From a virus, in IMG/VR virus record IMGVR_UViG_3300048084_000001, positions 1 to 23,576 of that record: a stretch of DNA of 23,576 bases; one strand, 5' to 3'. Below, piece by piece: positions 1-17,524 of the stretch. The notes under the pieces were generated by a model. That model had not been told where the DNA came from, made no database searches, and worked only from the letters and a program-made list of their open reading frames with translations. Made by a program: the position numbers and the translations under genes. The first letter of the stretch is position 1; the number at the start of each line of letters is the position of its first letter.

Positions 1-35
1 GTCGCCGGACCCGTGGCGGCTGTGCCAAAACCGGT

Positions 36-50
36 AACTCACAGTGAGTT
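36..50. promoter_or_regulatory. 15-bp perfect dyad
   Basis: AACTCAC and GTGAGTT flank a single central base, giving a 7-bp inverted repeat with a 1-nt centre. It lies just beyond the stop codon of the leftmost leftward gene, so it is either an operator for something outside the window or chance. The arms are too short for a terminator and no T-run follows. Confidence 0.25.
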
Positions 51-57
51 TCTTTCG

Positions 58-507
58 TCATCGCCCATGTCGTAAGGGGTCGCGCAAGATTCCGTATTCG
101 TATGGCGATTCCCACATGCGCTCGATGAGTTGTGTGTTGGCTAGGTGGCCGTGGTGTGGGCAGGCGGGGTGGATCTGGAATCCGGAGGCGACGACTACGA
201 AGCCGATGCCGCCTTGGTCTTCCTGTGTGGTGCACCAGCGGAGGTACTCGCAGCAGCAGGGCTTGACCACGTGCTCAGCTCGGGTGGAGGGCTGGCCTGG
301 GTAGGCGTGGCGCCCGAGCTGGAGGGGGCGCCTGTCCTTGCAGATGGGCACGTCACACAGCAGGTGGTGGATGGCCCAGATGTGGCGGGCTGCTGCCTCG
401 TACGCCCCGAGCTCGGCTCGGCTGTAGATGTGGAAGGGGTCGGGGTGGGGTGGGAGTAGGCGGTTGATGTCTGGCCGGCCTAGCGGGGTGAATTGCAGTC
501 TGGTCAC
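58..507 (-). CDS. Cys/His-rich hypothetical protein
   Basis: This 149-aa protein is not a family I recognise. It starts with GTG overlapping the stop of the upstream HNH gene by 4 nt (GTGA), which supports the start and operon membership. It is rich in possible metal ligands: C51 and C56, the run C84-C86, C92, and a cluster with H113, C116, H118, H119 and H121. This spacing suggests one or two structural zinc sites, but no named zinc finger fits. It is soluble, with no signal peptide or membrane segment. It is the last gene of the leftward early operon inside the window. The function is unknown; a nucleic-acid-binding accessory protein is a guess from context. Confidence 0.7.
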   Translation of the reverse strand: MTRLQFTPLGRPDINRLLPPHPDPFHIYSRAELGAYEAAARHIWAIHHLLCDVPICKDRRPLQLGRHAYPGQPSTRAEHVVKPCCCEYLRWCTTQEDQGGIGFVVVASGFQIHPACPHHGHLANTQLIERMWESPYEYGILRDPLRHGR

Positions 508-782
508 CAGGTCCTCCGGTTGGGTTGGGGTGGGGTGGTGGGGCGGTTGGTGTTGCGGTTGCCGGGGCAGTCGTAGCCCAGGCTGGCGGCGTACGCCCTG
601 GTGCTGTGTTCGGCTCGGACGTTGTCCGGATCTAGGGCGAGATCGGGCCTGAGCTCCATGGGGATGACGTGGCCGCCTTCGTTGGCGCCGGCTCCTCCGC
701 AGCGCCAGCAGATGCCTTGGTCTCGGTCGAGCACCCAGGCGCGAAGGCGGCGCCAGCGGCGGGTGCGGCGTACATCACCCAC
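504..782 (-). CDS. Small HNH endonuclease-like protein
   Basis: A 92-aa protein beginning with GTG and overlapping the upstream stop by 8 nt. It resembles the small HNH nucleases of actinophages: an Arg-rich N-terminus, a zinc pair C25/C28 (CWRC), the beta-hairpin His in GGHVIP (H38), and the helix motif DPDNVRAEH (N54, H59), followed by C72 as a possible zinc ligand. HNH proteins cut or nick DNA with a metal ion held by the beta-beta-alpha fold. In phages they often assist packaging and then sit beside the terminase; this one is at the far end of the early operon, so a role in replication or recombination is as likely. The second CxxC of the canonical zinc site is incomplete, so activity is uncertain. 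A longer reading frame upstream is compositionally poor and overlaps another gene. Confidence 0.72.
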   Translation of the reverse strand: MGDVRRTRRWRRLRAWVLDRDQGICWRCGGAGANEGGHVIPMELRPDLALDPDNVRAEHSTRAYAASLGYDCPGNRNTNRPTTPPQPNRRTW

Positions 783-1113
783 TGCTGAGGATGATGGCGA
801 GTCCGGCAGCGATGAGCACGACAAGCAACAGCAGGACGACAGCGTGCCGGCCGATGCCCTGGTGCTCCTCGTCGTCCCAGCCGGGGTACGGCAGACCACG
901 GCGCCAGTAGTGCGAGTGGTCGCCGCCGTCCGAAGAGACCTCCCAGTGGTCGCGGCAGGTGTCACAGGTCCATCTGGTGCGGACTGGGTAGAGGGCGGCG
1001 TCTGGGGGTGTGCAGGGGTGCGGCGGTGTGGGCTGGTAGCTGATGTGGCCGCCGGACTTATCCACAGGCAGCTTGCTGCCCCTGTGGTTGGGCTCCGGGG
1101 ATGAGTTGTTCAT
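775..1113 (-). CDS. C-tail-anchored membrane protein with CxxC
   Basis: This 112-aa protein starts at an ATG preceded by AAGGA about 9 nt upstream. Its N-terminal part is polar and proline-rich, then comes a CxxC pair (C50, C53) near several His residues (H56, H66, H68). A hydrophobic segment at about residues 90-109 ends only three residues before the C-terminus. The layout is that of a tail-anchored inner-membrane protein with a cytoplasmic, perhaps zinc-binding head. It follows the repeat-rich region at 1134-1217 and precedes the HNH gene with an 8-nt overlap. I do not recognise a family. Tethering of replication proteins to the membrane or a host-takeover role would be guesses. Confidence 0.65.
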   Translation of the reverse strand: MNNSSPEPNHRGSKLPVDKSGGHISYQPTPPHPCTPPDAALYPVRTRWTCDTCRDHWEVSSDGGDHSHYWRRGLPYPGWDDEEHQGIGRHAVVLLLLVVLIAAGLAIILSSG

Positions 1114-1133
1114 AGGGTTGGTTCCTTAACTGG

Positions 1134-1217
1134 CTTATAGGGGGGGACGATTTGCCCCCCACTTAGGGGGTACGAATCGTGTTTGTTAGGGGGGACGATT
1201 CGTACTTTCTTAGAGGG
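1134..1217. repeat. Iterated G-tract repeats, origin-like region
   Basis: Four copies of a T(T/A)AG(G)n unit occur on the + strand, with the A before the G-run at 1139, 1165, 1188 and 1212 (spacings 26, 23 and 24 bp). The first and third G-runs are followed by GACGATT. Two inverted repeats are superimposed: GGGGGG 1141-1146 with CCCCCC 1155-1160, and a perfect 11-bp pair GTACGAATCGT 1170-1180 with ACGATTCGTAC 1195-1205. The region fills the only gap between the winged-helix gene and the tail-anchored protein. Iterons beside a replication-type DNA-binding protein suggest an origin or operator; a terminator or G-quadruplex is also possible. Confidence 0.55.
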
Positions 1218-1551
1218 TCAGTTTCCACACCTGACGAGTACCCCGACCTGGCTTATCCACAGCCCTTTGCACAGCCCCTAGACGCACCAATGCGGTGGTG
1301 TGGCGCTTCACCTCGGACTTAATGTTCAGGCGCTTCCGTTCGGCCTCTGGTGAGCCGTCGTCGTGCTCGGGGACCTTCCGGCCGAGTGCTACTGCCAGAT
1401 CCTCCCAGCCGCGCCAGTAGGTCCCTGCGGGCTGGCCGTCGCGGCCTGGTGAGTCCAGCGCCTTGAGCGCCATACGGCACAAGATCTTGTAGGGCCCGGC
1501 GGGCAGGTGTCCCCAGTGGTCGGACACCTCACCCACCAGCCGGGCGCCCAT
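1210..1551 (-). CDS. Winged-helix DNA-binding, replication-type protein
   Basis: A 113-aa protein whose ATG overlaps the RusA stop (ATGA). Its sequence reads as a winged helix: an opening WGHLPAGPYKILCRMAL helix, a conserved aromatic stretch (GTYWRGWEDLAVALGR) and a recognition-helix/wing part (KRHTTALVRLGAVQR, then GRGTRQVWKL). The pattern 'gp-like helix, then W..LA..LG, then L...GAv......G....Y/W.L' is typical of phage replication initiator N-domains and plasmid-type regulators. No helicase or primase motifs follow, so it is a stand-alone DNA-binding module. It ends directly at the iterated G-tract repeats, the arrangement expected of an initiator and its origin or of an autoregulator and its operator. 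The DNA-binding assignment is fairly firm; the replication role is inferred. Confidence 0.75.
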   Translation of the reverse strand: MGARLVGEVSDHWGHLPAGPYKILCRMALKALDSPGRDGQPAGTYWRGWEDLAVALGRKVPEHDDGSPEAERKRLNIKSEVKRHTTALVRLGAVQRAVDKPGRGTRQVWKLTL

Positions 1552-2057
1552 CAGGCCAGCCCGAGCGGCCGAATACGCACTGTGGCGCCGGGGCGGTCCA
1601 GTACGTCACCACCCCGCGTCCATGGCTCCTGTCCGGGGTGTGGAGCGTCGTACTGCTTCTCGGTGAAGCCGGACACCACCTGGGCGTCATTCACGAGCAC
1701 ACCGGCGTCCTGGAGCGCGTCCAGCACGAGCCGTTCTAGCTTGTCCTTGTCGCCGGTCCCGTGGGTGCTCGGCCACACCTGGGCGCCGAGCTTGACCTTC
1801 CGGGCGTTGGCGCCGGTGCCGAAGTGGGATTTCGGGCGCGGGATGGTGAATGTGATTTCGACGTGGATGGGCTGCTGCGGGTCGGCGCGCTCTTCGACAC
1901 AGCGGCGCGCCATCGCTGCGACTTGCTGGCGCCAGCCGCCGTCGTCTACCTGCTCAACGAGTACATGTTTGCGGGTGCCGCGTGCACCGATGCACTTCAT
2001 TGAGCCTTTGGGTTTGGGTAGGCCGTAGACGCGGAATCCCCAGTGACGCGTGATCAT
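1551..2057 (-). CDS. rusA: RusA-family Holliday junction resolvase
   Basis: 168 aa, starting at an ATG with GGAAGG about 7 nt upstream; a longer upstream extension in the same frame has no supporting features. RusA dimers cut four-way DNA junctions symmetrically. The N-terminus carries the beta-strand opening FRVYGLPKPKGSMK and a later strand VEITFTIPRPKSH. The diagnostic motif GDKDKLERLVLDAL (about residues 102-115, with D103, D105 and D113) is followed by VLVNDAQV with D124; RusA proteins use conserved aspartates in exactly these places for metal binding. Length is slightly above that of E. coli RusA. It is coupled to the winged-helix gene downstream by ATGA and lies in the same operon as RecT and the exonuclease, consistent with processing recombination or replication intermediates before packaging. 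Confidence 0.9.
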   Translation of the reverse strand: MITRHWGFRVYGLPKPKGSMKCIGARGTRKHVLVEQVDDGGWRQQVAAMARRCVEERADPQQPIHVEITFTIPRPKSHFGTGANARKVKLGAQVWPSTHGTGDKDKLERLVLDALQDAGVLVNDAQVVSGFTEKQYDAPHPGQEPWTRGGDVLDRPGATVRIRPLGLA

Positions 2058-2087
2058 CTGGCATCCTTCCAGTGGGTTGGGAAGTGG

Positions 2088-2134
2088 TGCGGTCCCCGAC
2101 CGCTCAGCGGGGCGGCTGGCGATCGGGGACCGCA
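2088..2134. repeat. Nested inverted repeat ahead of rusA
   Basis: A perfect 12-bp inverted repeat, TGCGGTCCCCGA (2088-2099) and TCGGGGACCGCA (2123-2134), encloses a second small one, CCGCT/AGCGG (2100-2110). It occupies the 82-bp gap between the 99-aa gene and rusA. As RNA it would form a very stable structure about 30 nt before the rusA start; no T-run follows. An attenuator or partial terminator is the simplest reading. Confidence 0.6.
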
Positions 2135-2139
2135 TCTTG

Positions 2140-2439
2140 CTACGCGGTGGAGGCCGGCCCAACTTCTGGCGGCTGGTCCTCTGGGGTGGAGCGCATCGCC
2201 TCGCCGGACGTAACCCCGGCGTCGATCGTGATAACCAGCCGCTCAGCGGTCGGCTTGTACTCCACATCCCAGGCGGCCGATACGAGCTGCTCGGCGACCT
2301 TCTGGGTCTGGTTGTACGCGTCCAGCTCCCCTTCGGCCTGGGCGTTCGCGTAGGCCATGTCCAGGGCCTCCTGGACGATCGCGACCGCCACCGCCCGGGA
2401 GCCGATGGTGATCCGGCGCGAGCTCTTAGACCTCGACAC
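2140..2439 (-). CDS. Hypothetical early protein (99 aa)
   Basis: A 99-aa protein with a GTG start that overlaps the upstream gene by 14 nt. The N-terminus is basic (MSRSKSSRR), followed by a long predicted helix (about residues 16-55) rich in Ala, Glu and Gln, then a beta-like segment WDVEYKPTAERLVITIDAG and an acidic, Pro-rich tail. No family is recognised. Its position in the early operon, between the gene after the frameshifted pair and rusA, suggests a DNA-metabolism accessory or regulatory role. It is followed by the strong inverted repeat at 2088-2134, so it may end a transcription sub-unit. Confidence 0.65.
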   Translation of the reverse strand: MSRSKSSRRITIGSRAVAVAIVQEALDMAYANAQAEGELDAYNQTQKVAEQLVSAAWDVEYKPTAERLVITIDAGVTSGEAMRSTPEDQPPEVGPASTA

Positions 2440-2764
2440 TGTCGCCCTCCTCGATCGGACCGCCGTCCGCCTCGTCCAGCGGGAGCATGGCCTTGCCCGT
2501 GCGCTCGGTGAACGCCTTCTCCAGCTCGGCCTCCAGGTACGACGGGGCGTTCCCGTCCGTGGTGAGCACCTCCACGCGCCGGATGCGCACCAGCGGGGTG
2601 GTGGTGCCCTTGTCGAAGTTGGTGGTTTGCGAGGGCACGTCGAACACGACCCAGCAGCCCAGCATCAGGGTGTGGTCGGCGCGGATCTCGTCGGCGTAGT
2701 CGTCCAGACCGTTCCACTCCTCGCCCCCGGGGAGCTTGCTACTCAGCTTCACTTTCTCGCTCAC
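2426..2764 (-). CDS. Hypothetical acidic protein (112 aa)
   Basis: 112 aa from a GTG codon with an AG-rich stretch (GAAAGAGAG) upstream. It overlaps the -1 frame extension of the preceding gene by 26 nt. The protein is acidic, with beta-rich segments (TLMLGCWVVFDVP, PLVRIRRVEVLTT) and a helical ERTGKAMLPLDEADGG part near the C-terminus. I see no catalytic motif, membrane segment or zinc site. No function can be assigned. The overlap with the presumed chaperone extension suggests translational coupling to it. Confidence 0.65.
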   Translation of the reverse strand: MSEKVKLSSKLPGGEEWNGLDDYADEIRADHTLMLGCWVVFDVPSQTTNFDKGTTTPLVRIRRVEVLTTDGNAPSYLEAELEKAFTERTGKAMLPLDEADGGPIEEGDSVEV

Positions 2765-3271
2765 TGCGGTCTCTCTTTCGGTTGGTCAGGTGATACGTGA
2801 GCCACGCCAGTTCGGCCGGCGTGGAGTCTCTGAGGGCGCTGGGCGGGAACCCCGTCAGCAGCGCCAGGCGGGTCAGCTCGGAAGTGAGGAGACCGGCCCC
2901 GACGTAGGGTCCGTGACGGGCTCCGGCACCTCTACAGGGTCATCGCCCATCAGTTCGGACTGTTCCTGGATAGCGGCGGCGTCGTCGTTGCGGGCGCGCT
3001 GCACGGCGGCGTCCTGGGCTTCCCGGGTGAGGCGCTCGGTGAGCTGCCGGAACAGGTGGCCGACGTCTTTCGGCCGGAGCATCTTCACCTCGTTCCACGT
3101 GGTGGCTGGGTCGCGCTGCTTGAGGGCGTACCAGACCAGGGCGGGGCCGGCCTCCATGGCCATGTCAGTGACGTCGACGCCGGTTGCTGCCTTGATGGCG
3201 AAGATGACGGCGTAGGGCAGGTCGTCCACGTCGTCCAACTGGAGGTCGTCGGGGATGGTGGGTTTGGGCAT
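2739..3271 (-). CDS. Predicted -1 frameshift fusion (GT-like chaperone)
   Basis: Past the zero-frame stop (2873-2875) the -1 frame stays open to TAG at 2739-2741 and encodes a convincing protein segment: LTSELTRLALLTGFPPSA, then LRDSTPAELAWLTYHLTNRK. This matches the 'L..l...G.pP..l..lt..EL..L..h' shape of actinophage chaperone extensions. The -1 frame first opens after a TGA near 2942, so the shift must occur between about 2941 and 2876. The best slip candidate is TCG GGG CCG (2902-2894), where Gly-tRNA on GGG re-pairs perfectly one base back; the CCT at 2908-2906 can also re-pair with CCC. Slipping at GGG gives a product of about 177 aa. It is in no single ORF because it spans two frames. 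Confidence 0.5.
2873..3271 (-). CDS. Tail assembly chaperone-like protein (G-like, zero frame)
   Basis: 132 aa, starting at an ATG (TGAATG junction, GAGGAG upstream). The N-terminal half has the pattern of phage tail assembly chaperones: an LDDVDDLPYAVIFAIKAATG opening, then a hydrophobic helix PALVWYALKQ followed by RDPATTWNEVKML. In the family this corresponds to 'ali.laLrR.dP..T.eev..L'. The C-terminal 45 residues are charged, then acidic and Pro-rich, as in a linker. These proteins coat the tape measure during tail assembly. The downstream -1 frame carries a second conserved-looking segment (see the fusion entry), which strengthens the call. The location is odd: it lies in the early DNA-metabolism operon about 12 kb from the tape measure gene. 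The family call rests on pattern recognition, not a search. Confidence 0.6.
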   Translation of the reverse strand: MPKPTIPDDLQLDDVDDLPYAVIFAIKAATGVDVTDMAMEAGPALVWYALKQRDPATTWNEVKMLRPKDVGHLFRQLTERLTREAQDAAVQRARNDDAAAIQEQSELMGDDPVEVPEPVTDPTSGPVSSLPS

Positions 3272-3586
3272 TCAGGGCTCCTCGGTTGGTAGGGGTAGCT
3301 GGGTGGGGCGGGGGATCTCGGAGCAGACGACCTGATGCCTGATCCACATCGTTTCGCCCACCTCGGGGCGGTTGGAGATCCGGGCAACGAGCTTCTGATC
3401 CATCACGGTGCAGGCGATGTCCGCGCGGCGGTCCCCGAGAGGCGCCGGGCGCATACCGACCTCCACGGCGTCGGTGGGTGTCAGGAACGCCTTCCTGACG
3501 GGCTGGGCGCACTTCAGGCACTCGCCCCTATCCCAGGGCGGGAACTCCGGCGTGCGGGGCGCTGGGCGCCGGAAGCGCCTAGCCAC
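3272..3586 (-). CDS. Cys-containing hypothetical protein (104 aa)
   Basis: 104 aa from a GTG codon that overlaps the upstream stop by 8 nt. The N-terminus is basic and Pro-rich (MARRFRRPAPRT), followed by a CxxC pair at C23/C26 (GECLKC), with two further cysteines at C59 and C88. Four well-spaced cysteines could form a zinc ribbon, although C59 and C88 are not in a knuckle motif. The C-terminus is Pro-rich. It lies directly before the tail chaperone-like gene (TGAATG). No family is recognised. Confidence 0.65.
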   Translation of the reverse strand: MARRFRRPAPRTPEFPPWDRGECLKCAQPVRKAFLTPTDAVEVGMRPAPLGDRRADIACTVMDQKLVARISNRPEVGETMWIRHQVVCSEIPRPTQLPLPTEEP

Positions 3587-3746
3587 GCTGGAACCCTGCG
3601 CACGCCGTGTGGCGCAGCGCTCTCCCGAACGCCCGGGCGTGGGTGGGGTGGATCTGCTGCCAGGTGCACGAGCAGCATTCGGAGACCCACGGGAGATCCG
3701 GGAAGCTGGCCAGGTCGCGACGCTTGAACACTCGCCTACGTGCCAC
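3579..3746 (-). CDS. Small Cys/His protein (55 aa)
   Basis: A 55-aa product from GTG with GAGG 5 nt upstream. It overlaps the upstream gene by 11 nt and the downstream gene by 8 nt, the style of every junction in this operon. After a basic N-terminus it has C24, C25 and C27 (ECCSC), H33, H36, H46 and C49, enough ligands for one zinc site (for example C24 or C25/C27 with H46/C49). A longer frame running upstream on the same strand is a shadow of the preceding gene. Function unknown; a small zinc-binding regulator or DNA-binding protein is possible. Confidence 0.6.
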   Translation of the reverse strand: MARRRVFKRRDLASFPDLPWVSECCSCTWQQIHPTHARAFGRALRHTACAGFQRG

Positions 3747-4002
3747 GTCGGCCTCGCTTCGGCCGGTCCAGGATCTCCATCCGGTCCGCAACGTCCAGCA
3801 TGTTCGTGGCCATCTCCCGGATAGCCAGGTGGTGCCGCACCCGGAACGTGGCAACGATCTTGTTGTCCGCGACCACCCGCATGTACACCCGGTCGTCGAC
3901 CCGCACGAAGTCCACGCCGTCGGCGGGGCCCAGCGGCTGGCCGTGGATCTGGGCCAGGTCGATCGTGTGCTCGGCCTGCTCCAGGCGCTCACGGATGCCC
4001 AT
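3736..4002 (-). CDS. Hypothetical protein (88 aa)
   Basis: 88 aa from the ATG at 4002, within a TGATG junction with the 16-codon ORF upstream. An in-frame extension to 4080 would overlap the recT 3' end and has low-complexity content, so it is rejected. The protein begins with a helix (GIRERLEQAEHTIDLAQ), has a beta-like centre (VDFVRVDDRVYMRVVADNKIV) and ends with a helix containing REMATNMLDVADRMEIL and a basic tail. No family is recognised. Being next to recT it may take part in recombination, but nothing in the sequence proves this. Confidence 0.65.
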   Translation of the reverse strand: MGIRERLEQAEHTIDLAQIHGQPLGPADGVDFVRVDDRVYMRVVADNKIVATFRVRHHLAIREMATNMLDVADRMEILDRPKRGRRGT

Positions 4003-4052
4003 CAGTTCTGCCCCGCCCGGAGCTGGGCCAGGGTCAGCGCACCGTTGATCAC
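4002..4052 (-). CDS. 16-codon ORF bridging recT and next gene
   Basis: A GTG that overlaps the recT stop (GTGA) opens a frame encoding MINGALTLAQLRAGQN, ending at a TGA that overlaps the next gene's ATG (TGATG). Both junctions have the form used by true neighbours in this genome. GGGGAGG lies 5-11 nt before the GTG. It may be a translated coupler or a tiny peptide gene rather than a functional protein; chance cannot be excluded. Confidence 0.3.
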   Translation of the reverse strand: MINGALTLAQLRAGQN

Positions 4053-5383
4053 GTCTGGCCTCCCCACTCGGCCGCCGCACGCTGCACCAACTGCTCCAGT
4101 TCGTCGCGCGTGCTCAGCCCGTTCACGGCCCGGATCAGCTTGTCCCCGTCGCCGGACGTGAGCGTGCTCCAGGTCTCGACCTGGCGACCCAGCAGAGCCG
4201 AGCTGGTGTGCAGCCGCTCGGCCCGGTCGGTCACCCCGAGCGCGTTGAACGCGGCCAGCAGCAGGCGGCGCTTCCCGGCGCTCAACGGCGGGTCGTTCTC
4301 CTCAACGGGGCCGCCGGCCTGGCCGAACTGCTCCTGGGCTTCCTGCATGTGCTGCTTGAAGCGGCCCTGCAGGTACGACTCGTCCGAACCGGTAGCAGCC
4401 ACATCCTCGGCCGAGCCGTCACCCTCGCTGTCCACGATCTCGGCGTCGTAGACCTCGTCCGGCTCGGTGCCAGGCTCGGTCAGGAACGCGACAGCGTCAG
4501 CACCGGCGAGCTCACGCTCTGCGTACTCCTCCCGGGAGCTGGGGCCGGCGGGTGAGCTGGTGCTCTGGTTACCCAACCCCTCCCCAGGGGTTTGGCCCGC
4601 CGGCTCCTCCTCACCCGGAAGCGGGACCTCGGGAGGCGCCACGCTGTCGGGCGTAGGGGTGGCGGCCGGTGCAGGGGTCTCGGCCGTACCGGAACCGACC
4701 GCCGGACGAGAGGCTACCCGCTTCGACGCACGCGACACCTTCTCCGTGGCCGGAGTGGGCGCGCTGGACGGGACGGCGTCCTCGTCCTGGACCTCCTCCG
4801 ACGTGGCCAGACCATGGGTGATGTCCGGGAACATGTCGTTGATGAGCTCGGCGGTAGCGCGTGCCTTCAGCATCTGCCGGGGGTGCTTCTGCCAGTTCTT
4901 CTTCCCGGTCAGCCCGGCAACCGTGGCCATAGCCAGAGTCCATGTGACTGTGGACGGCTCCCCGTAGATCGGCTCCCCGGTCTCCGGGTGACGCCACAGC
5001 AGGCGCCGCCCGGTGGCGGTAGCCGAACCCCCGTCACCCACAACGGTGAGCAGGTGCCCCTTCTCCAGCACCATCGCCCGCTTATGTTCGGCCGTCAGCG
5101 AGGGGCGGCCGTCGATCACGTGGACCTGGTTGAGGGCCTGCATGGGTGGCATGTCGAGCTCTCGACCGAACAGGATCGCGGCGGCCACAGCAGCAGGCTT
5201 GCCCCGCAGCGCGGCCGGTACGAAGTCGGTGTTCGATACCTGCTCGGCGAGCGAGCTCACCGGCCCGATGACCAGGGCCCAGTCGTCGGTCTTCTGCCGG
5301 GGTGGCGTGACTCGGGCTGCTGGCACCTGCGGTAGGCGCTCCCCACCGACCTGCGGGGACTGTAGTTCCATCTCGCTACTCAC
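4049..5383 (-). CDS. recT: RecT-family single-strand annealing protein, extended
   Basis: 444 aa from GTG at 5383, chosen because GGAGG lies 9 nt upstream and the start overlaps the exonuclease stop by 8 nt. RecT anneals complementary single strands after a 5'-3' exonuclease has resected DNA. The core (about residues 35-195) holds the typical features: FGRELDMPPMQALNQVHVIDGRPSL, then AEHKRAMVL, and near its end the family signature HPRQMLKARATAELINDMFPDI. Residues about 200-355 are an Ala/Pro/Glu/Ser-rich disordered linker. The C-terminal 80 or so residues form a separate helical module (SAGKRRLLLAAFNALGV..., RLHTSSALLGRQV, LTSGDGDKLI). Most RecT proteins are near 270-330 aa, so the linker and extra domain are unusual. 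It pairs with the upstream exonuclease. Confidence 0.93.
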   Translation of the reverse strand: MSSEMELQSPQVGGERLPQVPAARVTPPRQKTDDWALVIGPVSSLAEQVSNTDFVPAALRGKPAAVAAAILFGRELDMPPMQALNQVHVIDGRPSLTAEHKRAMVLEKGHLLTVVGDGGSATATGRRLLWRHPETGEPIYGEPSTVTWTLAMATVAGLTGKKNWQKHPRQMLKARATAELINDMFPDITHGLATSEEVQDEDAVPSSAPTPATEKVSRASKRVASRPAVGSGTAETPAPAATPTPDSVAPPEVPLPGEEEPAGQTPGEGLGNQSTSSPAGPSSREEYAERELAGADAVAFLTEPGTEPDEVYDAEIVDSEGDGSAEDVAATGSDESYLQGRFKQHMQEAQEQFGQAGGPVEENDPPLSAGKRRLLLAAFNALGVTDRAERLHTSSALLGRQVETWSTLTSGDGDKLIRAVNGLSTRDELEQLVQRAAAEWGGQT

Positions 5384-6197
5384 TGGCAGCGACCTCCTCA
5401 TCGGTCAGGTGTGCGACCGGCACACCGATACGGCTGTTGTCCTCGACCGACGCACGAGCCCGCGCCACCTGGAGGATGTGCAGGAACTCCCGATGCACGG
5501 GCGGGTCGGTCTCCACGGGAACCATCTCGATCCGGTCGGGCAGGATCTGCACCACGAACGTGGCGTCCACGACGGGCATGGGCCCTTCAGACTTCGGTCC
5601 GCTCATCTGGCACAGGTCGGCGTACCGGTAGCCCGCGAGCTGCCAAGCCACCTCCTCGTACACGCGCGGCTGGCGCTTGAAGTCGATCAGTGCCGACACC
5701 CCGCGCCGGTGCAGCATGCCCATCGCGTCCGGCGTACCGCCGTACTTCCACGTCGTGTGGGCAATCGGGAACTCGTTCGCCCAGGACTCCCACTGCTCCC
5801 GGTCCATCCAGCGGGCGAGCGCTTCGGCCTGCGGGCGCTGTTCCTCGGTGACGGTGATCTCCTCGTCGCGCGACAGCTTCTCGGCGATCAGGTGCAGCGC
5901 CGTACCGGCCCCGGACGCCTGGTCCCGGACCTTGTTCCGGGCGCCCATGAGCTCGGCCAGCCGGTCAGTGGTCGACATCCCCGCGAGCTGGTCCCAGTTG
6001 TCCACGGCGTGCGCGGCGGTGACCTTCGCGGCCCACCCGATCAGCGCCTCCGTGGACAGGGTTTTGAGGGCGGTGGTGACGCCGTACAGCTTGTGCGGGT
6101 CCGACTTCCGGTAGCGCCCGGGGCACTGGCAGTCCAGGCGGTAGGCGTGCCACTGCCGGCCCCACGCGGTCCCGGTCACCTTCTCTAGACGGGCCAT
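5376..6197 (-). CDS. PD-(D/E)XK exonuclease (Cas4/RecB-like), RecT partner
   Basis: 273 aa from an ATG overlapping the upstream gene by 13 nt. It belongs to the PD-(D/E)XK nuclease superfamily: a GTALH motif at 98-102, GGTPDAMG at 153-160 (D157), ALIDFKRQ at 169-176 (D172, K174) and QLAGY at 186-190, which together are the RecB/Cas4 family motifs I to IV. C23 and C25 near the N-terminus (LDCQCPG) do not make a full Cas4 iron-sulfur cluster. The enzyme would resect double-stranded DNA ends 5' to 3' so that RecT, encoded next with an 8-nt overlap, can load. This is the functional equivalent of lambda exo/bet. No host-type helicase domain is present. Confidence 0.88.
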   Translation of the reverse strand: MARLEKVTGTAWGRQWHAYRLDCQCPGRYRKSDPHKLYGVTTALKTLSTEALIGWAAKVTAAHAVDNWDQLAGMSTTDRLAELMGARNKVRDQASGAGTALHLIAEKLSRDEEITVTEEQRPQAEALARWMDREQWESWANEFPIAHTTWKYGGTPDAMGMLHRRGVSALIDFKRQPRVYEEVAWQLAGYRYADLCQMSGPKSEGPMPVVDATFVVQILPDRIEMVPVETDPPVHREFLHILQVARARASVEDNSRIGVPVAHLTDEEVAASE

Positions 6198-6433
6198 GTG
6201 GTCACCCCTTCGAACAGCACCTCAGTCACTTGGAAGTCCCGGACGTCTACGAAGTCGTACTCACCGGGCGTGCGGGTCACCTTCCACGGCAACCCGTCCT
6301 CGTCAAAATCCGGTTCCCAGGTCCCCACGACCGGTTCACCGGGCCAGTAGCCGTCCACACGGCGACCAATGACCACGGCTCCCCACTGGAGCGAGCCGGC
6401 AGGGGTTCCCTCGATCGGGGCGCGCGGGCTCAT
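6185..6433 (-). CDS. Hypothetical protein (82 aa)
   Basis: 82 aa from an ATG overlapping the upstream stop (ATGA). It has an SLQWGAVVIGRRVDGYWPG opening and an acidic, beta-rich body (WEPDFDEDGLPWKVTRTPG, DFVDVRDFQVTEVLF). No catalytic or metal motif is visible. It overlaps the exonuclease gene by 13 nt. Function unknown. The longer reading frame upstream of this ATG duplicates the preceding gene's DNA in another frame and is not used. Confidence 0.62.
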   Translation of the reverse strand: MSPRAPIEGTPAGSLQWGAVVIGRRVDGYWPGEPVVGTWEPDFDEDGLPWKVTRTPGEYDFVDVRDFQVTEVLFEGVTTWPV

Positions 6434-6759
6434 AGGTCCACCCCGGGGGCAAGGATCTCGACAAGCTCCAGGTCCCTGCTGTTGATCCACCCGCCGTGCT
6501 GGGCGGCGGCACGCCAGCGGTGGTGAAACATCTCGTTGTCCGACTGGGCGGACAAGACGTAGATCTGCTCCGACGCCTCGCCGGACCGGCGGGCCCGGAT
6601 GACCGCACCCAGCCCGGTCGGGAACTCCGGGATCTGCCCACGGATCAGGTAGGCGATCGCGATGGCGTCGCCCCCGTCCAGGTCCAGCCTGTACAGGACG
6701 TACTGCCAGTCCGCCGGGGTCAGCTCAATCGAGACGGGACGCTCGGTCGAATCGCTCAC
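6430..6759 (-). CDS. Hypothetical protein (109 aa)
   Basis: 109 aa from GTG, overlapping the preceding gene by 35 nt. It has a mixed alpha/beta profile: SIELTPADWQYVLYRL, then a Gly/Asp turn and DAIAIAYLIRGQIPEFPTGLG, an Arg-rich stretch, and a C-terminal INSRDLELVEILAPG segment. No cysteine, membrane or nuclease motif is visible. It is followed by an ATGA junction. I do not recognise a family. Its place just ahead of the recombination genes is the only functional hint. Confidence 0.65.
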   Translation of the reverse strand: MSDSTERPVSIELTPADWQYVLYRLDLDGGDAIAIAYLIRGQIPEFPTGLGAVIRARRSGEASEQIYVLSAQSDNEMFHHRWRAAAQHGGWINSRDLELVEILAPGVDL

Positions 6760-7084
6760 GGGTCAGCTCCTCTCGCTTCTTACTGCGCTGGCGCTCGATC
6801 CACGCCATCCGCTCGGTCACTGCCACGTCGATCTCCTGCTTGACCTTGGTCAGCTCCTCGCCAACCCGCTTCTCCAAGATCAGCCACAGCACGTCACCGA
6901 GCTCGACCGCGAGCGGCTGGGGCAGGGCGTCCGTGATCCGCTTCGCGAGGGCGGGCCGGCCGAGCGCGTGACGGAGCTTGTACTCAGCCGACCAAGGCGG
7001 AACGGGCCGGACCTCCTGGGCGCGCTGAGCGGCCAGAGCGGCGGCCACCCCCTCATCGTGGTCAGCCCACCGGGCGTCGTTCAC
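6725..7084 (-). CDS. Helical hypothetical protein (119 aa)
   Basis: 119 aa from GTG at 7084, which overlaps the stop of the membrane protein gene (GTGA). After an acidic N-terminus (NDARWADHDEG) it is almost wholly helical. A leucine-rich stretch (LPQPLAVELGDVLWLILEKRVGEELTKV) runs into a highly charged helix with many Lys, Arg and Glu (RMAWIERQRSKKREELTRERF), possibly a coiled coil. The strongly basic C-terminal helix could bind nucleic acid. No family is recognised. The same frame extends further upstream, but that part is a shadow of the membrane protein gene. Confidence 0.65.
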   Translation of the reverse strand: MNDARWADHDEGVAAALAAQRAQEVRPVPPWSAEYKLRHALGRPALAKRITDALPQPLAVELGDVLWLILEKRVGEELTKVKQEIDVAVTERMAWIERQRSKKREELTRERFDRASRLD

Positions 7085-7674
7085 CGCTCCTCCTCGACCT
7101 TCACCGTGTACTTGGTGTTGGCGGCGTTCACCTGGACGAAGTACTCGCCAGGCGCCTTGCGCAGCACGATGGAGTCCGATGCGCTGTCGGCGTTGTCGAT
7201 CATCGCGACCGGCAGGCCACCGTCCTTGTGCAAGTCGGTGCCCTCGTCCAACAGGTAGATCGCGCCCACCATGAACTCCGACTGGGTGAACTTCCACGTC
7301 ACCCGGATCTTGCCGCCGGTGGTCCGGATCGTGTCGGAGGTCTTCTCGGTGCCACCGGTGACGGTGGCGAGCGGCACCCACTTCTTCGCGGCAGGCGGCG
7401 CCGTGGTCTTCGGGGCACCGGCCTTGGTGGTGATCGAGGTAGGGAGCTCAGCCGTCTTGCCCGGGTCAGTCGCAGTGCCGATCATGCCGGCCACGATGAC
7501 CAGCCCGAGGAGGAAGGCGATCAGTCCGCCGAACCAGCGCCACGCGGTCCGCTTCTTGCGGGGCGGGGTCGGGGGTGCCGGCGGCTGGGAGTAGGGGCCC
7601 GGCTGTCCGGAGCCGTACGAGTAGTCCGGTACGGCGGGTGTCTGCCAGGACGGATGGGCGTTGTTGTCGTTCAC
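7081..7674 (-). CDS. Membrane-anchored protein with exported domain
   Basis: 197 aa from GTG at 7674 with AAAGG 8 nt upstream. Residues 1-40 are Pro/Gly/Tyr-rich and end in a basic KKR cluster; residues 48-68 are one membrane helix (GGLIAFLLGLVIVAGMIGTA). After a Thr/Pro/Lys linker comes a beta-rich domain (about 100-197) with TGGKIRVTWKFTQSEFMVGAIYLL and, near the end, PGEYFVQVNAANTKYTVKVEEE. By the positive-inside rule the C-terminal domain faces outward. The shape matches many actinobacterial surface-domain proteins. It lies just downstream of the XRE regulator, where temperate phages often keep superinfection-exclusion or lysogenic-conversion genes; that role is inference. Confidence 0.75.
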   Translation of the reverse strand: MNDNNAHPSWQTPAVPDYSYGSGQPGPYSQPPAPPTPPRKKRTAWRWFGGLIAFLLGLVIVAGMIGTATDPGKTAELPTSITTKAGAPKTTAPPAAKKWVPLATVTGGTEKTSDTIRTTGGKIRVTWKFTQSEFMVGAIYLLDEGTDLHKDGGLPVAMIDNADSASDSIVLRKAPGEYFVQVNAANTKYTVKVEEER

Positions 7675-7714
7675 GGTGGTGCCTTTCTGGGATGGGAAGT
7701 TGTTGCCTGTGGCC

Positions 7715-7736
7715 CTCAGATCCGGTCGGATTTGAG
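7715..7736. repeat. 22-bp imperfect dyad after the XRE gene
   Basis: CTCAGATCCG and CGGATTTGAG face each other across GT, with one G/T position in ten. It lies 7 nt beyond the stop codon of the XRE gene in the leftward direction. It could be a terminator stem (no T-run follows) or an operator for the next gene; it does not share the TGACG motif of the divergent control region. Confidence 0.45.
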
Positions 7737-7742
7737 ACAGCC

Positions 7743-7958
7743 CTAGTCGTTGAGGAGCTTGGACGGCTCCATGTCCAGCGCGTTGGCGAGCACTTCGAGC
7801 CGGGCCAGGGTGATGTTCACGTTGTCGTTGAGGATCGCGGTGAGGGCCGGCCGGCTCATGCCGACCTTGTTCGCGAAGTCCTCCTGCTTGATCTGCCGGC
7901 GGGCGAGCTCGCCCCGGAGATTGGCCGCTACTCGGCCATTCAGAGTGAGGGTTTCCAT
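7743..7958 (-). CDS. XRE-family HTH transcriptional regulator (Cro/CI-like)
   Basis: 71 aa from the ATG at 7958; upstream in-frame sequence is promoter DNA. It is essentially one lambda-repressor-type helix-turn-helix domain. Helix 2 is about residues 25-33 (QEDFANKVG), helix 3 is 35-44 (SRPALTAILN), then TLARLEVLANALDMEPSKLL completes the five-helix fold. There is no C-terminal dimerisation or cleavage domain, so it is Cro-sized. It is the first gene of the leftward early side and is divergent from the small rightward operon. Three TGACG repeats and its own promoter lie immediately upstream, suggesting autoregulation. It could be the immunity repressor or a Cro-like early regulator. Confidence 0.88.
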   Translation of the reverse strand: METLTLNGRVAANLRGELARRQIKQEDFANKVGMSRPALTAILNDNVNITLARLEVLANALDMEPSKLLND

Positions 7959-7965
7959 GACGAGG

Positions 7966-7994
7966 ATCTTGCAGGTTAGCTGACGTGATGTCAA
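7966..7994 (-). promoter_or_regulatory. Leftward promoter of the XRE gene, leaderless
   Basis: A perfect -35 TTGACA (7994-7989), a 17-bp spacer and a -10 CAAGAT (7971-7966) are followed 7 nt later by the ATG of the XRE gene. Transcription should start at or next to that A, and no ribosome-binding site is present, so the mRNA is predicted to be leaderless, as is common in actinobacteria. Confidence 0.7.
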
Positions 7995-8026
7995 GTTCCG
8001 CTGACGCTTGCGCTCCTGGGCTGACG
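7979..8026. promoter_or_regulatory. Three GCTGACG direct repeats, probable operators
   Basis: GCTGACG occurs at 7979-7985, 8000-8006 and 8020-8026, spaced 21 and 20 bp, so all copies face the same side of the helix. The first extends to the dyad TGACGTGATGTCA (7981-7993), which covers the -35 of the XRE promoter. The third lies in the spacer of the rightward promoter. They are the best candidates for binding sites of the XRE protein and could control both directions. Confidence 0.6.
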
Positions 8027-8037
8027 TGGCGTACCGT
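8008..8037 (+). promoter_or_regulatory. Rightward promoter of the small operon
   Basis: TTGCGC (8008-8013), an 18-bp spacer and TACCGT (8032-8037) fit a sigma-70-type actinobacterial promoter. Transcription would begin near 8044, leaving a leader of about 29 nt with GGAGG at 8062-8066 and the ATG at 8073. A GCTGACG repeat sits within the spacer. Confidence 0.5.
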
Positions 8038-8072
8038 CTCACTCGGAGACGCACCCACACTGGAGGACGGCG

Positions 8073-8399
8073 ATGAACAAGCACACGATCACCCACCCGG
8101 ACGGCACCACGAGCACCCGGAACAGCAAGACCCGCACCTACCTGTACTGCGTGGAAGTGTTCAGCGACGGGAGTTACGGCGTCGTCGGCTGGGCGGGCAA
8201 CCTTCAGAACGCTCTCAAGACTCAGCGGCAGTGGCAGAAGGTCTACCCGGGCGCCACGGTGCGCGACGTGGACAAGCCCAAGCTTGAGGACTGCCAGCGC
8301 TGCGACGGCACCGGCCAGCTTCCCCGGTACAACGGGCAGGGTGGTTACATCGGCGGCGGCGCATGTGACGTGTGCAAGGGTCACGGTGTGGTCCGATGA
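8073..8399 (+). CDS. Small protein with DnaJ-type CxxCxGxG pair
   Basis: 108 aa, first gene of the rightward operon, with GGAGG 6 nt before the ATG. The N-terminal two thirds is a beta-rich domain (RTYLYCVEVFSDGSYGVVGW) with the helix NLQNALKTQRQWQKVYPG. The C-terminus carries two CxxCxGxG units: CQRCDGTG at 74-81 and CDVCKGHG at 98-105. This is one complete DnaJ-type zinc site, where the four Cys bind one zinc ion. There is no J domain, so it is not a DnaJ chaperone; the module may bind protein or nucleic acid. It ends in an ATGA overlap with the next gene. Function unknown. Its position under operator-like repeats suggests tight control. Confidence 0.8.
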   Translation: MNKHTITHPDGTTSTRNSKTRTYLYCVEVFSDGSYGVVGWAGNLQNALKTQRQWQKVYPGATVRDVDKPKLEDCQRCDGTGQLPRYNGQGGYIGGGACDVCKGHGVVR

Positions 8400-8701
8400 G
8401 CCTGGACAGGATGTACCGCCTCAGGTGCGACGTGTCCACGATGCTCATGGACCGGGTGATGGCCACGACCGCGAACGGCGACACGTTCTCGAAGGACCTG
8501 GACGCGACCCGGGAGGAACGGCACGCCCAGGAGATCGGGTGCGCCAACTTCGGTCCGCTTGATAACGATGCCCGGAAGTCTCGTAGCGCGGCCACGTCGG
8601 CTGGCTGGGTCCGCCGCAGGACCGAGCGGCCGATCTACGGTGGCGCAACCGCGACGACCAAGGTTTTCTATGACCTCTGCCCGCACTGCGCCGCGCTGTG
8701 A
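8396..8701 (+). CDS. Hypothetical protein ending in CPHC (101 aa)
   Basis: 101 aa, the ATG overlapping the previous stop (ATGA). An N-terminal helix (RMYRLRCDVSTMLMDRVM) is followed by a charged region and a C-terminal GWVRRR...YDLCPHC element. The 'GW...DLCP.C' ending is a half zinc ribbon seen in small actinobacterial proteins; with C49 or C11 it could complete a metal site. It is translationally coupled on both sides (GTGA to the next gene). No family name can be given. Together with the first gene it gives this operon two probable zinc proteins in a row. Confidence 0.7.
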   Translation: MSLDRMYRLRCDVSTMLMDRVMATTANGDTFSKDLDATREERHAQEIGCANFGPLDNDARKSRSAATSAGWVRRRTERPIYGGATATTKVFYDLCPHCAAL

Positions 8702-8916
8702 CCGGCACGATGGCGGTCGCGACGCCCGGCGACATGCTGGTGTGGCTCGCTGTGATCTGGGCTGTGTTCCGGGCCATGGACACGGTGATCCTCCTCGGGT
8801 CGGTGACGGGGACGGCCGTCACCGGGGCGGTCCGGAGGCGTTGGCATCGCCGCCGGGCCGCCCGCAAGTGGCAGGCGTTCAAGGACGCGCACCCTGACCT
8901 ATTCGAGGGGAGGTAA
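8698..8916 (+). CDS. Small membrane protein (72 aa)
   Basis: 72 aa from a GTG overlapping the previous stop (GTGA); an in-frame ATG four codons later is an alternative. A hydrophobic stretch (about residues 12-42, VWLAVIWAVF and VILLGSVTGTAVTGAV) can form one long or two short membrane helices. It is followed by a strongly basic segment (RRRWHRRRAARKW), which should keep the C-terminus in the cytoplasm, and an FKDAHPDLFEG tail. No family is recognised. A membrane protein co-transcribed with zinc proteins next to the immunity control could act in exclusion or lysis control. Confidence 0.68.
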   Translation: MTGTMAVATPGDMLVWLAVIWAVFRAMDTVILLGSVTGTAVTGAVRRRWHRRRAARKWQAFKDAHPDLFEGR

Positions 8917-8919
8917 ACC

Positions 8920-9075
8920 ATGGGGATCGGTGGCAAGAAGAAGGCAGCCGACGACGACAGCAACCGGACGCCGGAGCGGAAGGTGCGGCGGTCGAACAAC
9001 CGGCGCACGCTGAACGCTGACGAGAAGAAGCGGATCAGCACCACGAAGCACTCAACGCGAGACGCGGGCCGCTAA
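8920..9075 (+). CDS. Basic 51-aa protein
   Basis: A 51-codon frame from an ATG with GGGGAGG about 7 nt upstream, ending at TAA (9073-9075). The product is highly charged: GKKKAADDDSN, then a run with RKVRRSNNRR and DEKKRISTTKH, about one third Lys+Arg. It has no hydrophobic core and is probably disordered or nucleic-acid-binding. It closes the rightward operon and lies 17 nt before the stem of the bidirectional hairpin. The start signal is the strongest argument that it is real. Confidence 0.6.
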   Translation: MGIGGKKKAADDDSNRTPERKVRRSNNRRTLNADEKKRISTTKHSTRDAGR

Positions 9076-9092
9076 ATACTTAGGGCCTGAAC

Positions 9093-9133
9093 GCGACGAA
9101 CCCCCCAGGGAAGCGCTCTGGGGGGTTCGTCGC
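9093..9133. terminator. Bidirectional hairpin terminator between convergent genes
   Basis: A perfect 16-bp stem (GCGACGAACCCCCCAG at 9093-9108, complement at 9118-9133) encloses a 9-nt loop. It sits in the 84-bp gap between the rightward small operon and the 3' end of the leftward late genes. There is no clear T-run on either strand, as is usual in GC-rich actinobacteria. It would stop transcription from both sides. Confidence 0.85.
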
Positions 9134-9159
9134 ATCTGGAGTCGCACGCGAGAGGCAGC

Positions 9160-9351
9160 CTACAGGCGGTCGGTGTTGTGTTCGAACAGGTCCGGTGACA
9201 GCACGAGCAGGATGCCGCCGCAGACCGAGCAGACGAGATGCCCGTTCTTCACGGTGGGGTCGGTGGCGTGGATGCCGTTGACCGGTGGCGGCACGTAGCC
9301 GGGGTCGTACTTCAGGCCCGGGTCACCGTCCGGGATCGGGGCTTCGGTCAT
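9160..9351 (-). CDS. Small CxxC protein after holin (63 aa)
   Basis: 63 aa from an ATG overlapping the holin stop (ATGA). The N-terminal half is Pro/Asp/Gly-rich (PDGDPGLKYDPGYVPPP) and the rest contains one CxxC (LVCSVCGG) followed by a hydrophobic ILLVLSP. A single CxxC might form half a zinc knuckle, with H56 and H32 nearby as possible ligands. It is the last gene of the late operon. Function unknown; it may belong to the lysis group by position only. Confidence 0.65.
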   Translation of the reverse strand: MTEAPIPDGDPGLKYDPGYVPPPVNGIHATDPTVKNGHLVCSVCGGILLVLSPDLFEHNTDRL

Positions 9352-9605
9352 CACGCCTCCTCGGTGGGCGGGGGCACGGGGGTGGCCTTCGCCTTGTTCC
9401 GGAGAGCGTAGACCGTGCCGCCGGACACGGCCGCGCCACCGACACACCAGCACGCCGCGATGACCAGCTCGTTGCCGGTGACGCCGTTCTCGGCCGCTCC
9501 GGTGAGGTAGGCGGCGCCGGGTGCCAGGAAGCCGACCACGGCGGCGCCTACGGCCTTGGCTGGACCCCAGGTCTGCACGAACCACTGCGGGGCCGGCGTG
9601 CTCAT
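9351..9605 (-). CDS. Holin, two transmembrane segments
   Basis: 84 aa from an ATG overlapping the endolysin stop (ATGA). Two hydrophobic segments, about residues 18-36 (AVGAAVVGFLAPGAAYLTG) and 45-68 (NELVIAACWCVGGAAVSGG), are joined by a short turn, and the C-terminal tail is basic then Pro/Glu-rich (RNKAKATPVPPPTEE). Size, two-helix topology and position right after the endolysin are the marks of a class II holin. It would form membrane lesions that release the endolysin at the programmed time. Longer versions of this frame upstream are shadows of the endolysin gene. Confidence 0.85.
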   Translation of the reverse strand: MSTPAPQWFVQTWGPAKAVGAAVVGFLAPGAAYLTGAAENGVTGNELVIAACWCVGGAAVSGGTVYALRNKAKATPVPPPTEEA

Positions 9606-10237
9606 GAGGACCAGAGCGGCCGGTAGAACGCGAACAGAAGGTCCTTGACCTCGGTGGGGGACTTGCCCTCGTCGAAGAGCTTCTTCGCGTAGAGCTCGCC
9701 TGCCTGGCGCCACGCGGTGGCCTGGATCTCGTACTTGTCGTCACCGCGACGCTGGTTGTCCAGCACGGCCTGGAGCTGTTCCGGGGTCATCTCGGTCTCC
9801 TCGTCTTGTGGGTGGGCCTTGAGGTATTGCGCCCAGGTCGTGTAGGCGACCTTCGGTCCGTCGTCTTTGCCGTTGCCCTTCAGCCCGTTGCGGCCGTTCT
9901 TGTAGGCGGTGACCTGGTCGGCCGCTCCGGCGGAGATGTCGCCGCCGATCGGGATCGCGTGAATGTGCGCGACCTTGAAGCCCTGGGCCACGGTCCGGTA
10001 CCAGGCAGCAAACCCGACCTGGCGCAACGCGGTCACCGCCCGGACGACCTGGACCTGGGCGAGGTCCTTGGCCCGCACATCCAGCGCGTCCCGGTCATGG
10101 GTGCCGGCCGAGTCGGGCACGGCGCCGGCGTTGTATCCGCCCTGGGTGATCACGAGTGGGAGGCCGGTCAGGCGGCGTGCCTCCCGCAGCATGTCCACGG
10201 TCCGCTGGGTGGTGTGGTGTCCTTCGAAGGTGATCAC
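9602..10237 (-). CDS. Endolysin, M15-type D-Ala-D-Ala/peptide carboxypeptidase
   Basis: 211 aa from GTG at 10237, with GGAGG 10 nt upstream. Residues about 1-100 match the M15A (hedgehog/DD-peptidase) fold: GTHDRDALDV at 46-54 supplies zinc ligands H47 and D53, and VAHIHAIPIGG at 89-99 supplies H91/H93. These enzymes cleave peptide bonds in the peptidoglycan stem. Residues about 150-211 form a helical region (TPEQLQAVLDNQRR, TEVKDLLFAFYRPLW) that may bind the cell wall, though no known binding domain is recognisable. There is no signal peptide, so export depends on the adjacent holin. Family call is strong, exact bond cleaved is not known. Confidence 0.85.
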   Translation of the reverse strand: MITFEGHHTTQRTVDMLREARRLTGLPLVITQGGYNAGAVPDSAGTHDRDALDVRAKDLAQVQVVRAVTALRQVGFAAWYRTVAQGFKVAHIHAIPIGGDISAGAADQVTAYKNGRNGLKGNGKDDGPKVAYTTWAQYLKAHPQDEETEMTPEQLQAVLDNQRRGDDKYEIQATAWRQAGELYAKKLFDEGKSPTEVKDLLFAFYRPLWSS

Positions 10238-10254
10238 GGGGTTGGGGCCTCCGG

Positions 10255-10593
10255 TTATTCGGGTGGTGCGGTGGGCGCGTCGGCCTCGCGGAGCCGGGCG
10301 CGGATGGCGTCGGCCGATCCGCCGGCGTTGAGGTCGCGGGCCTTCGCCTCCTGCTGGAGCTCAGCGAACTCCATGGACGTGTACGGGTCCTGGGTCTGGT
10401 CTGCGAGCTCGGCCGCTACGGCTTCGGCGCGCGCGGCCTCCTCGGCGGCCTTCTCCTCGGCGCTCTTGCGGGGCCGCCCCAACCGGGCGTCCCGACGCTC
10501 GGCCGCCTTCTCCAGGGCCTCCTGGATGGTGTAGCGCACGGGCTCCGGCGCCGGGGCCTCCACGGTCTCCCGCTGGGTTGCTCGCTTGGTCAT
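10255..10593 (-). CDS. SAP/HeH-like protein with charged coiled coil
   Basis: 112 aa from an ATG. The first half is a basic, Pro-containing N-terminus and a long charged helix very rich in Ala, Glu and Lys/Arg (KSAEEKAAEEAARAEAVAAE). Near the C-terminus lies a SAP or HeH-like motif: MEFAELQQEAKARDLNAGGS, followed by ADAIRARLREAD. The pattern 'L..eAk.rgLn..Gsk..li.RL.ea' is typical of SAP domains, which bind DNA in other proteins; in phages such motifs also occur in structural proteins. It sits between the collagen-like protein and the endolysin. Function uncertain. Confidence 0.7.
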   Translation of the reverse strand: MTKRATQRETVEAPAPEPVRYTIQEALEKAAERRDARLGRPRKSAEEKAAEEAARAEAVAAELADQTQDPYTSMEFAELQQEAKARDLNAGGSADAIRARLREADAPTAPPE

Positions 10594-10622
10594 GGTGTCC
10601 TGCTCCGATCGGTCGGGGTGGG

Positions 10623-11276
10623 TTACCCGCCTCCGATGGTAGGCGGCGCGGGTGTGCAGGTGACGGACGTGGTTGTGCCGTCGGAGTACCCGAACCAGAA
10701 CGTGGCGGGGTAGGGGCCGACACAGTTCGCTGTGATCACTCCAGGCCCGGCGGGACCGGTGCTGCCTTGGTCTCCGCCGGGTCCCTGGGGCCCGGACGGA
10801 CCGGCAGGTCCCGGCGCCGTCGAGTCGGCGCCGGGCTGGCCACTGGCACCGGCAGGACCGGGGATAGTCGAATCATCGCCAGCGCGGCCCGGCGTACCGG
10901 GCCCACCAGACTTTCCCGGGCTCCCAGGCCCTCCGGTACCCCCCGGCCTCCCGGAGGCTCCTGGGGCCCCTGAGGGGCCGGAAGGTCCGGACGGTCCAGC
11001 GGGGCCAGCCGGGCCGGTGATCTGCTCAACCGGCTGGGTTGCGACCTTCGATGCCTCGGCACAGGCGACGCCGTACCGCCTCGCGGCTGCCGGGTCCCGC
11101 TGGCAGATCTCCGCGAGCTGACCCGCGAAGTCCTTCGCCTGCCCCTGAGCGCCGGCCTTCTGCTCCTGCTGCTCCTGCTTGCCCGCGAACGTCCACGCGA
11201 CCACACCCCCGCCCCCGATGATCCCGGCCGCCATCAGCACCACCGCAGCAGTGGCGTTGAGACGAGGCGAGCCCAT
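10623..11276 (-). CDS. Membrane-anchored collagen-like protein
   Basis: 217 aa from ATG at 11276 (TGATG junction; GTG one codon earlier is possible). Residues about 8-30 form a hydrophobic helix (AAVVLMAAGIIGGGGVVAWT), followed by a Gln/Lys/Ala linker and a helical region with C60 and C73. About residues 88-180 consist of some 30 Gly-X-Y triplets rich in GPAGPSG, interrupted twice by DSTIPG and DSTAPG. The C-terminal part has two cysteines (C186, C208, ORF numbering) and a beta-like WFGYSDGTTTSV segment. Collagen triplets form trimeric rods. Phages use them in tail fibres, but a membrane anchor is odd there; it may be a lysogen surface protein or a fibre whose anchor helix has another role. 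Confidence 0.8.
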   Translation of the reverse strand: MGSPRLNATAAVVLMAAGIIGGGGVVAWTFAGKQEQQEQKAGAQGQAKDFAGQLAEICQRDPAAARRYGVACAEASKVATQPVEQITGPAGPAGPSGPSGPSGAPGASGRPGGTGGPGSPGKSGGPGTPGRAGDDSTIPGPAGASGQPGADSTAPGPAGPSGPQGPGGDQGSTGPAGPGVITANCVGPYPATFWFGYSDGTTTSVTCTPAPPTIGGG

Positions 11277-11551
11277 CACTCCGGCCCCCCCGGGGGGTAC
11301 TTGGTCCAGCGGTCGAAGTCCACAGGCTCAGCCTCGCCCCTGCGTGCGAAGTAGTCACGTACTGGGACGACCACACGTGACATCACCAGGCGGTCCCAGA
11401 CGCGCCGGTGCTCCAGCTCCTCGCGTTCCTCGGAAGCGAGGGCCTGCACTTTGGTCTGGGTGTCGCGCCGGAAGGCGAGCACGAATCCGAACACGGTCGC
11501 AAGGATCGACCCGACGCCGGCGACGATGATGCCCCAGTCACCACCAGACAC
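11276..11551 (-). CDS. Single-TM membrane protein (91 aa)
   Basis: 91 aa from GTG at 11551. A membrane helix occupies about residues 8-27 (IIVAGVGSILATVFGFVLAF), then comes a charged helical domain (RRDTQTKVQALASEEREELEHRR) and a C-terminal region with VVVPVRDYFARRG. Basic residues right after the helix suggest the C-terminus is cytoplasmic. It is coupled to the collagen-like gene by TGATG. It could be a second lysis protein or a partner of the collagen-like protein in the membrane; no family is recognised. Confidence 0.7.
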   Translation of the reverse strand: MSGGDWGIIVAGVGSILATVFGFVLAFRRDTQTKVQALASEEREELEHRRVWDRLVMSRVVVPVRDYFARRGEAEPVDFDRWTKYPPGGPE

Positions 11552-11560
11552 CCTCGGAGG

Positions 11561-11800: not shown

Positions 11801-11837
11801 GGGTATCTCCCTCGTTGGTTGATTGGGTGCGATGAGG

Positions 11838-12608: not shown

Positions 12609-12621
12609 CTCTAGCCTCCTG

Positions 12622-13398: not shown

Positions 13399-13401
13399 TG
13401 C

Positions 13402-16750: not shown

Positions 16751-16753
16751 CGA

Positions 16754-17113: not shown

Positions 17114-17115
17114 GG

Positions 17116-17523: not shown

Positions 17524-17524
17524 C

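Follow-up and report, generated by a model that had tools for sequence, protein, structure and literature searches.

The position of the tail assembly chaperone gene beside the tape measure gene is among the best-kept gene orders of long-tailed phages and serves as a guide in locating the gene; the locus considered here raises the question of whether a chaperone and its frameshifted extension may lie about 12–13.5 kb from the tape measure gene, among genes for recombination, an earlier note on this DNA having claimed a move of about 12 kb. The window, a complete virus-collection record of 23,576 bases, belongs to a siphovirus whose minus strand carries nearly all genes, and its terminase, tube and tape measure proteins find their closest likeness in small (14–18 kb) actinobacterial siphoviruses, such as Gordonia phages Emperor and EricDab, Rhodococcus phage RRH1 and Arthrobacter phage Maggie. 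On the minus strand, the tail genes include the major tail (tube) protein, kin of small-siphovirus tube proteins (17116–17523; phrog_4574, E 6.5e-21), a gp10-like or tail completion protein (16754–17113; phrog_5, E 5e-6) and a tape measure protein of 476 aa (15320–16750; phrog_8462, E 7.5e-31), and the early or recombination region includes, on the same strand, a RecE/PD-(D/E)XK-type exonuclease (5376–6197; phrog_298, E 3e-26) and a RecT-like annealing protein (4049–5401; phrog_4171, E 1.1e-33). An HNH endonuclease ORF (58–965) and a terS-like ORF (23119–23496) stand at opposite ends, which gives the record the look of a linear genome that is nearly complete.

The 132-aa gene at 2873–3271, most likely expressed along with its minus-strand neighbours, very probably forms with its −1 frame, on the evidence of the sequence, a cassette for a tail assembly chaperone (G plus GT by −1 frameshift) displaced from the tail operon into the recombination operon. 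The displacement, which was the core of the earlier note, is supported by, and is the best explanation of, the frameshift signal of the lineage, the likeness of the extension in a profile search, the empty slot in the tail operon and the relatives whose early region lacks the insertion.

The 132-aa gene and its −1 frame

The predicted 0-frame chaperone (gpG-like, 132 aa; 2873–3271, minus strand) has an ATG start that abuts the upstream stop (TGAATG) and is preceded by GAGGAG, in the context GAGGAGCCC TGA ATG. The −1 frame, free of stops from 2939 on, closes at 2741–2739, 134 nt beyond the 0-frame stop and 26 bases into the next gene, and it includes LTSELTRLALLTGFPPSA and ELAWLTYHL; the region 2872–2764 holds no other minus-strand gene, and thus the earlier description of a 132-aa ORF with a −1 frame running open to 2739 in an otherwise gene-free stretch proved correct. 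The predicted gpT-like extension, GPYVGAGLLTSELTRLALLTGFPPSALRDSTPAELAWLTYHLTNRKRDRSERESEAE (2739–2911, minus strand), has no start codon of its own: as read from the sequence, the −1 frame after the overlap contains no ATG, GTG or TTG, and would therefore be reachable by frameshift alone. When a profile HMM built from 33 −1 extensions of relatives was run without filters on the 442 six-frame segments of the window, the segment 2742–2939 of the minus strand ranked first (E 5.7e-4; the next, 0.26), and it was still first but weak (E 0.032) when the GPY residues were left out. The codon score of the part beyond the stop is above that of 99% of wrong-frame windows and below that of 99% of true genes, an intermediate value to which the overlap with the start region of the next gene may contribute. 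Downstream of the junction, there was no signal of stable RNA structure (z about 0).

The 0-frame protein has no Pfam or PHROG family match, and tblastn searches of phages with this protein and the extension gave no relevant match, even at E 10; the single IMG/VR match (L002) lies antisense to an S49-type peptidase ORF and is spurious. Against six chaperone profiles in HMMER and five in hhalign, the 0-frame domain did not rise above shuffled controls, the pooled profile alone giving a weak signal (12.7% probability). AlphaFold, run on the single sequence, gave a helical model of poor quality (pLDDT 64), and Foldseek found no similar fold with it. Of the homology to chaperones that the earlier note made a test, a likeness was seen in the −1 segment, first of the 442, and none was detected in the 0-frame domain. 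The slot chaperones of relatives, that is, the genes between the gp10-like gene and the tape measure, fall by eye into several unrelated-looking groups, and the non-match of the 0-frame domain therefore neither proves nor excludes membership.

These results bear on the alternative that the 132-aa gene encodes an unrelated early-region protein and that the −1 open frame with GGACCCTAC is a coincidence. The 0-frame protein without a family match and the intermediate codon score of the extension are in its favor; nevertheless, this nonamer is almost absent outside chaperone-like junctions and stands here in the right phase, the extension is the top HMM match, the size of the cassette fits and the slot in the tail operon is empty, all of which make a coincidence improbable, at about one chance in ten by our judgement.

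The tail operon slot and the early region

Loci were fetched around relatives of the tube protein (58) and of the terminase (80). In 73 of the 75 in which both the gp10-like and the tape-measure gene could be recognised, the two are 393–567 nt apart, and in the window a mere 3 nt separate the gp10-like stop from the tape-measure start (16750–16754, minus strand), which bears out the earlier observation that this tail interval holds one gp10-like gene alone. The displaced cassette, which measures 533 nt when the 0-frame start and the −1 stop are taken as its limits, has the size of the missing slot content, and the nearest tail relatives (L094 and L029) carry a chaperone directly after the gp10-like gene, with an identical or near-identical signal. 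The window showed no competing −1 pair that runs out into a non-coding gap; such a second pair had been named beforehand as a finding that would speak against displacement. The other exception is Arthrobacter phage Yavru (L019, NC_073600; 5856–6386), with no gene between gp10-like and tape measure genes and no GGACCCTAY found; its chaperone is missing, displaced or unrecognised.

The genes on either side of the cassette, both on the minus strand, are an upstream early-region gene of 104 aa (3272–3586) and a downstream one of 112 aa (2426–2764), and both are conserved in three IMG/VR phages of 21.9–23.6 kb (L003, L024 and L025) that have their early region in common with the window (exonuclease, RecT, several small genes and RusA, at roughly 42–67% identity). 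In all three, the homologues of the two flanking genes are adjacent, with a gap or overlap of a few bases, which argues that the arrangement in the window, a cassette between two early genes, is the derived one; most likely, to judge from this gene order, a chaperone cassette of roughly 500 bp came to this place by relocation or by acquisition. The tail regions of these three phages belong to another lineage and contain, after the tube gene, a gene of 116–117 aa with an overlapping frame, as expected for a chaperone-like pair in the tail operon, the ordinary arrangement. Among related phages, unrelated genes of 116–117 aa after the tube gene were seen in L007 (3042–3392, from the L003 phage), L027 (7149–7499) and L028 (6660–7013), and the gene of L003 has an A6 run at its end, beyond which an extension continues in the +1 (or −2) frame. 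A nine-base direct repeat, ACCAACCGA, is present at both cassette junctions (3290–3282 and 2786–2778); with a chance probability estimated at about 1%, it gives a mere hint at the entry route of the cassette. The searches gave no close relative that shares the insertion, nor any prophage relative in genome contigs.

Since the window was taken from a virus collection derived from metagenomes, and the arrangement was found on no second contig, a genuine tail chaperone gene might have been placed in the early region by a chimeric assembly or as a misplaced piece. Against this, both flanking genes are neighbours in the three relatives, the insert has a start coupled to the stop of the gene before it and an end that overlaps the start of the gene after it, and the tail slot is cleanly closed, so that two independent misassemblies would be needed, and we regard this origin as very unlikely.

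The nonamer GGACCCTAY

The probable −1 frameshift site of the displaced chaperone is GGACCCTAC at 2912–2904 on the minus strand, and the same nonamer in the same register is found in about half of the slot chaperones. It reads ACG GAC CCT ACG in the 0 frame and GGA CCC TAC, or G-P-Y, in the −1 frame, lies in the correct phase 12 codons before the 0-frame stop and is the sole copy in the window (47 kb of sequence on both strands). When the junctions to the −1 frame in EricDab, Maggie and RRH1 were set beside that of the window, the one common string was GGACCCTAC (0 frame ..GAC CCT ACn..). Of the 62 non-redundant genes in this slot, 31 have CCCTAC in one register, and two further slot chaperones, in L031 and L048, have GGACCCTAT (CCCTAT); the remaining slot chaperones carry, in the same register, mostly slippery runs (GGGAAA in 13, GGGGGA in nine, GGGTTT in three and CCCTTT in one).

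Over all loci, about 1.7 Mb, GGACCCTAY occurs at 64 sites: 61 are at chaperone-like junctions (36 of the GACCCTAC sites in slot-verified genes, the other junctions being judged by ORF structure), one is in the window gene and two are elsewhere and unrelated. At the 61 junctions, a −1 extension of 45–80 aa comes next. Away from such junctions, about two occurrences were seen in roughly 3.4 Mb of strand, a background rate that converts to an expectation of about 0.03 sites per window, and of about 1e-5 for the overlap in phase. Another contig, L087, with a 54% identical terminase, stops after the tube gene, and the GACCCTAC that it contains is unrelated. The best comparative evidence of a role as a slippery site comes from the phrog_15555 chaperone of Curtobacterium phage Barebow, which has GGACCCTAC where its homologues in PaoPu and phiExGM16 show GGGAAAC or GGGAAAA.

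No canonical XXXYYYZ heptamer lies in register within the overlap of the window gene, and CCCTAC would let the P-site tRNA-Pro alone re-pair (CCU to CCC), from which we infer a slip of a single tRNA. The G-run TCG GGG CCG, the slip site proposed in the earlier note, is present and falls in the overlap (2902–2894), yet it is no canonical heptamer in register and is not conserved in relatives, which have GGACCCTAY in common and vary in the bases downstream, so that slippage of a displaced chaperone at this run is most improbable.

The literature matches listed for GGACCCTAC were incidental, with no description in the open literature searched, and the motif types of PRFect do not name GGACCCTAY or GGACCCTAC (PMC10885494). 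Noncanonical and kept across unrelated chaperone domains, the signal therefore offers a testable new case of −1 frameshifting. With about even chances, GGACCCTAY is an undescribed non-heptamer −1 signal of many actinobacterial small siphoviruses with unrelated 0-frame domains, and chaperone plus signal constitute a portable unit, working here in trans from the early operon, so that control of tail length would need neither co-expression nor adjacency with the tape measure gene.

Putative mechanism and known systems

In the mechanism proposed for the displaced chaperone, the majority of ribosomes would stop at 2873 and yield the 132-aa G-like protein, and a minority would slip back one base at C-CCU-ACG in GGACCCTAC and then read UAC, probably through re-pairing of the peptidyl-tRNA-Pro from CCU to CCC. 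The slipped product would be a fusion with a T-like extension of about 45 aa, and, by analogy with lambda, the G part may coat the tape measure, of 476 aa, whereas recruitment of the tube protein may fall to the T part. The tail and recombination operons are probably separate units, since plus-strand ORFs (8073–8916) and a helix-turn-helix gene lie between them; from its position and this separation, the 132-aa gene would be transcribed with the early genes and expressed early. One of the plus-strand ORFs has CxxCxG-type zinc motifs, and together with the helix-turn-helix gene on the opposite strand (about 7743–7958, minus strand) they are likely to form a divergent control region between late and early units. 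A scan of positions 1–17600 for promoters and terminators, uninformative for a GC-rich phage, found none. A collagen-like protein with G-x-y repeats is encoded at 10623–11279, among the tail and lysis genes.

A conserved frameshift in tail assembly chaperone genes was reportedly described by Xu, Hendrix and Duda in 2004. Like lambda gpG/gpGT, whose role as tail assembly chaperones has been reviewed (PMC5009743), the window pair consists of a small 0-frame protein and a predicted low-frequency −1 extension near the 3′ end, and is the only such pair of the genome; it differs in that it does not lie between the tube and tape-measure genes, in its signal GGACCCTAC in place of XXXYYYZ and in the lack of detectable 0-frame homology. 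The chaperones of EricDab, Emperor, Maggie and RRH1 (phrog_6889) have in common with it the GGACCCTAC junction and a similar GPY...LA..TGIPPS... extension, whereas theirs occupy the tail slot next to the gp10-like gene and their 0-frame domain is of another family. Among the phrog_15555 chaperones (Curtobacterium phage Barebow, Microbacterium phage PaoPu), that of Barebow has the same GGACCCTAC as the window; the similarity of this group to the window protein in the 0 frame is not above controls.

In the literature searched, a displaced chaperone is raised solely as a possibility, for Gordonia cluster DJ phages, which were reported without an identified chaperone gene and for which the authors consider an atypical genomic location (PMC12859696); as in the window, their slot upstream of the tape measure is empty. 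The nine-base signal may offer a way to search for such ‘missing’ chaperones, for example in cluster DJ, although GGACCCTAY was absent in a motif scan of the cluster DJ phage FortCran. The window would represent a clean exception to the gene order, in which a separate transcription unit can fix the G:GT balance in trans. In summary, the pair would, as its sequence suggests, work like a G/GT chaperone, with a position away from the tape measure gene and a non-canonical slip signal.
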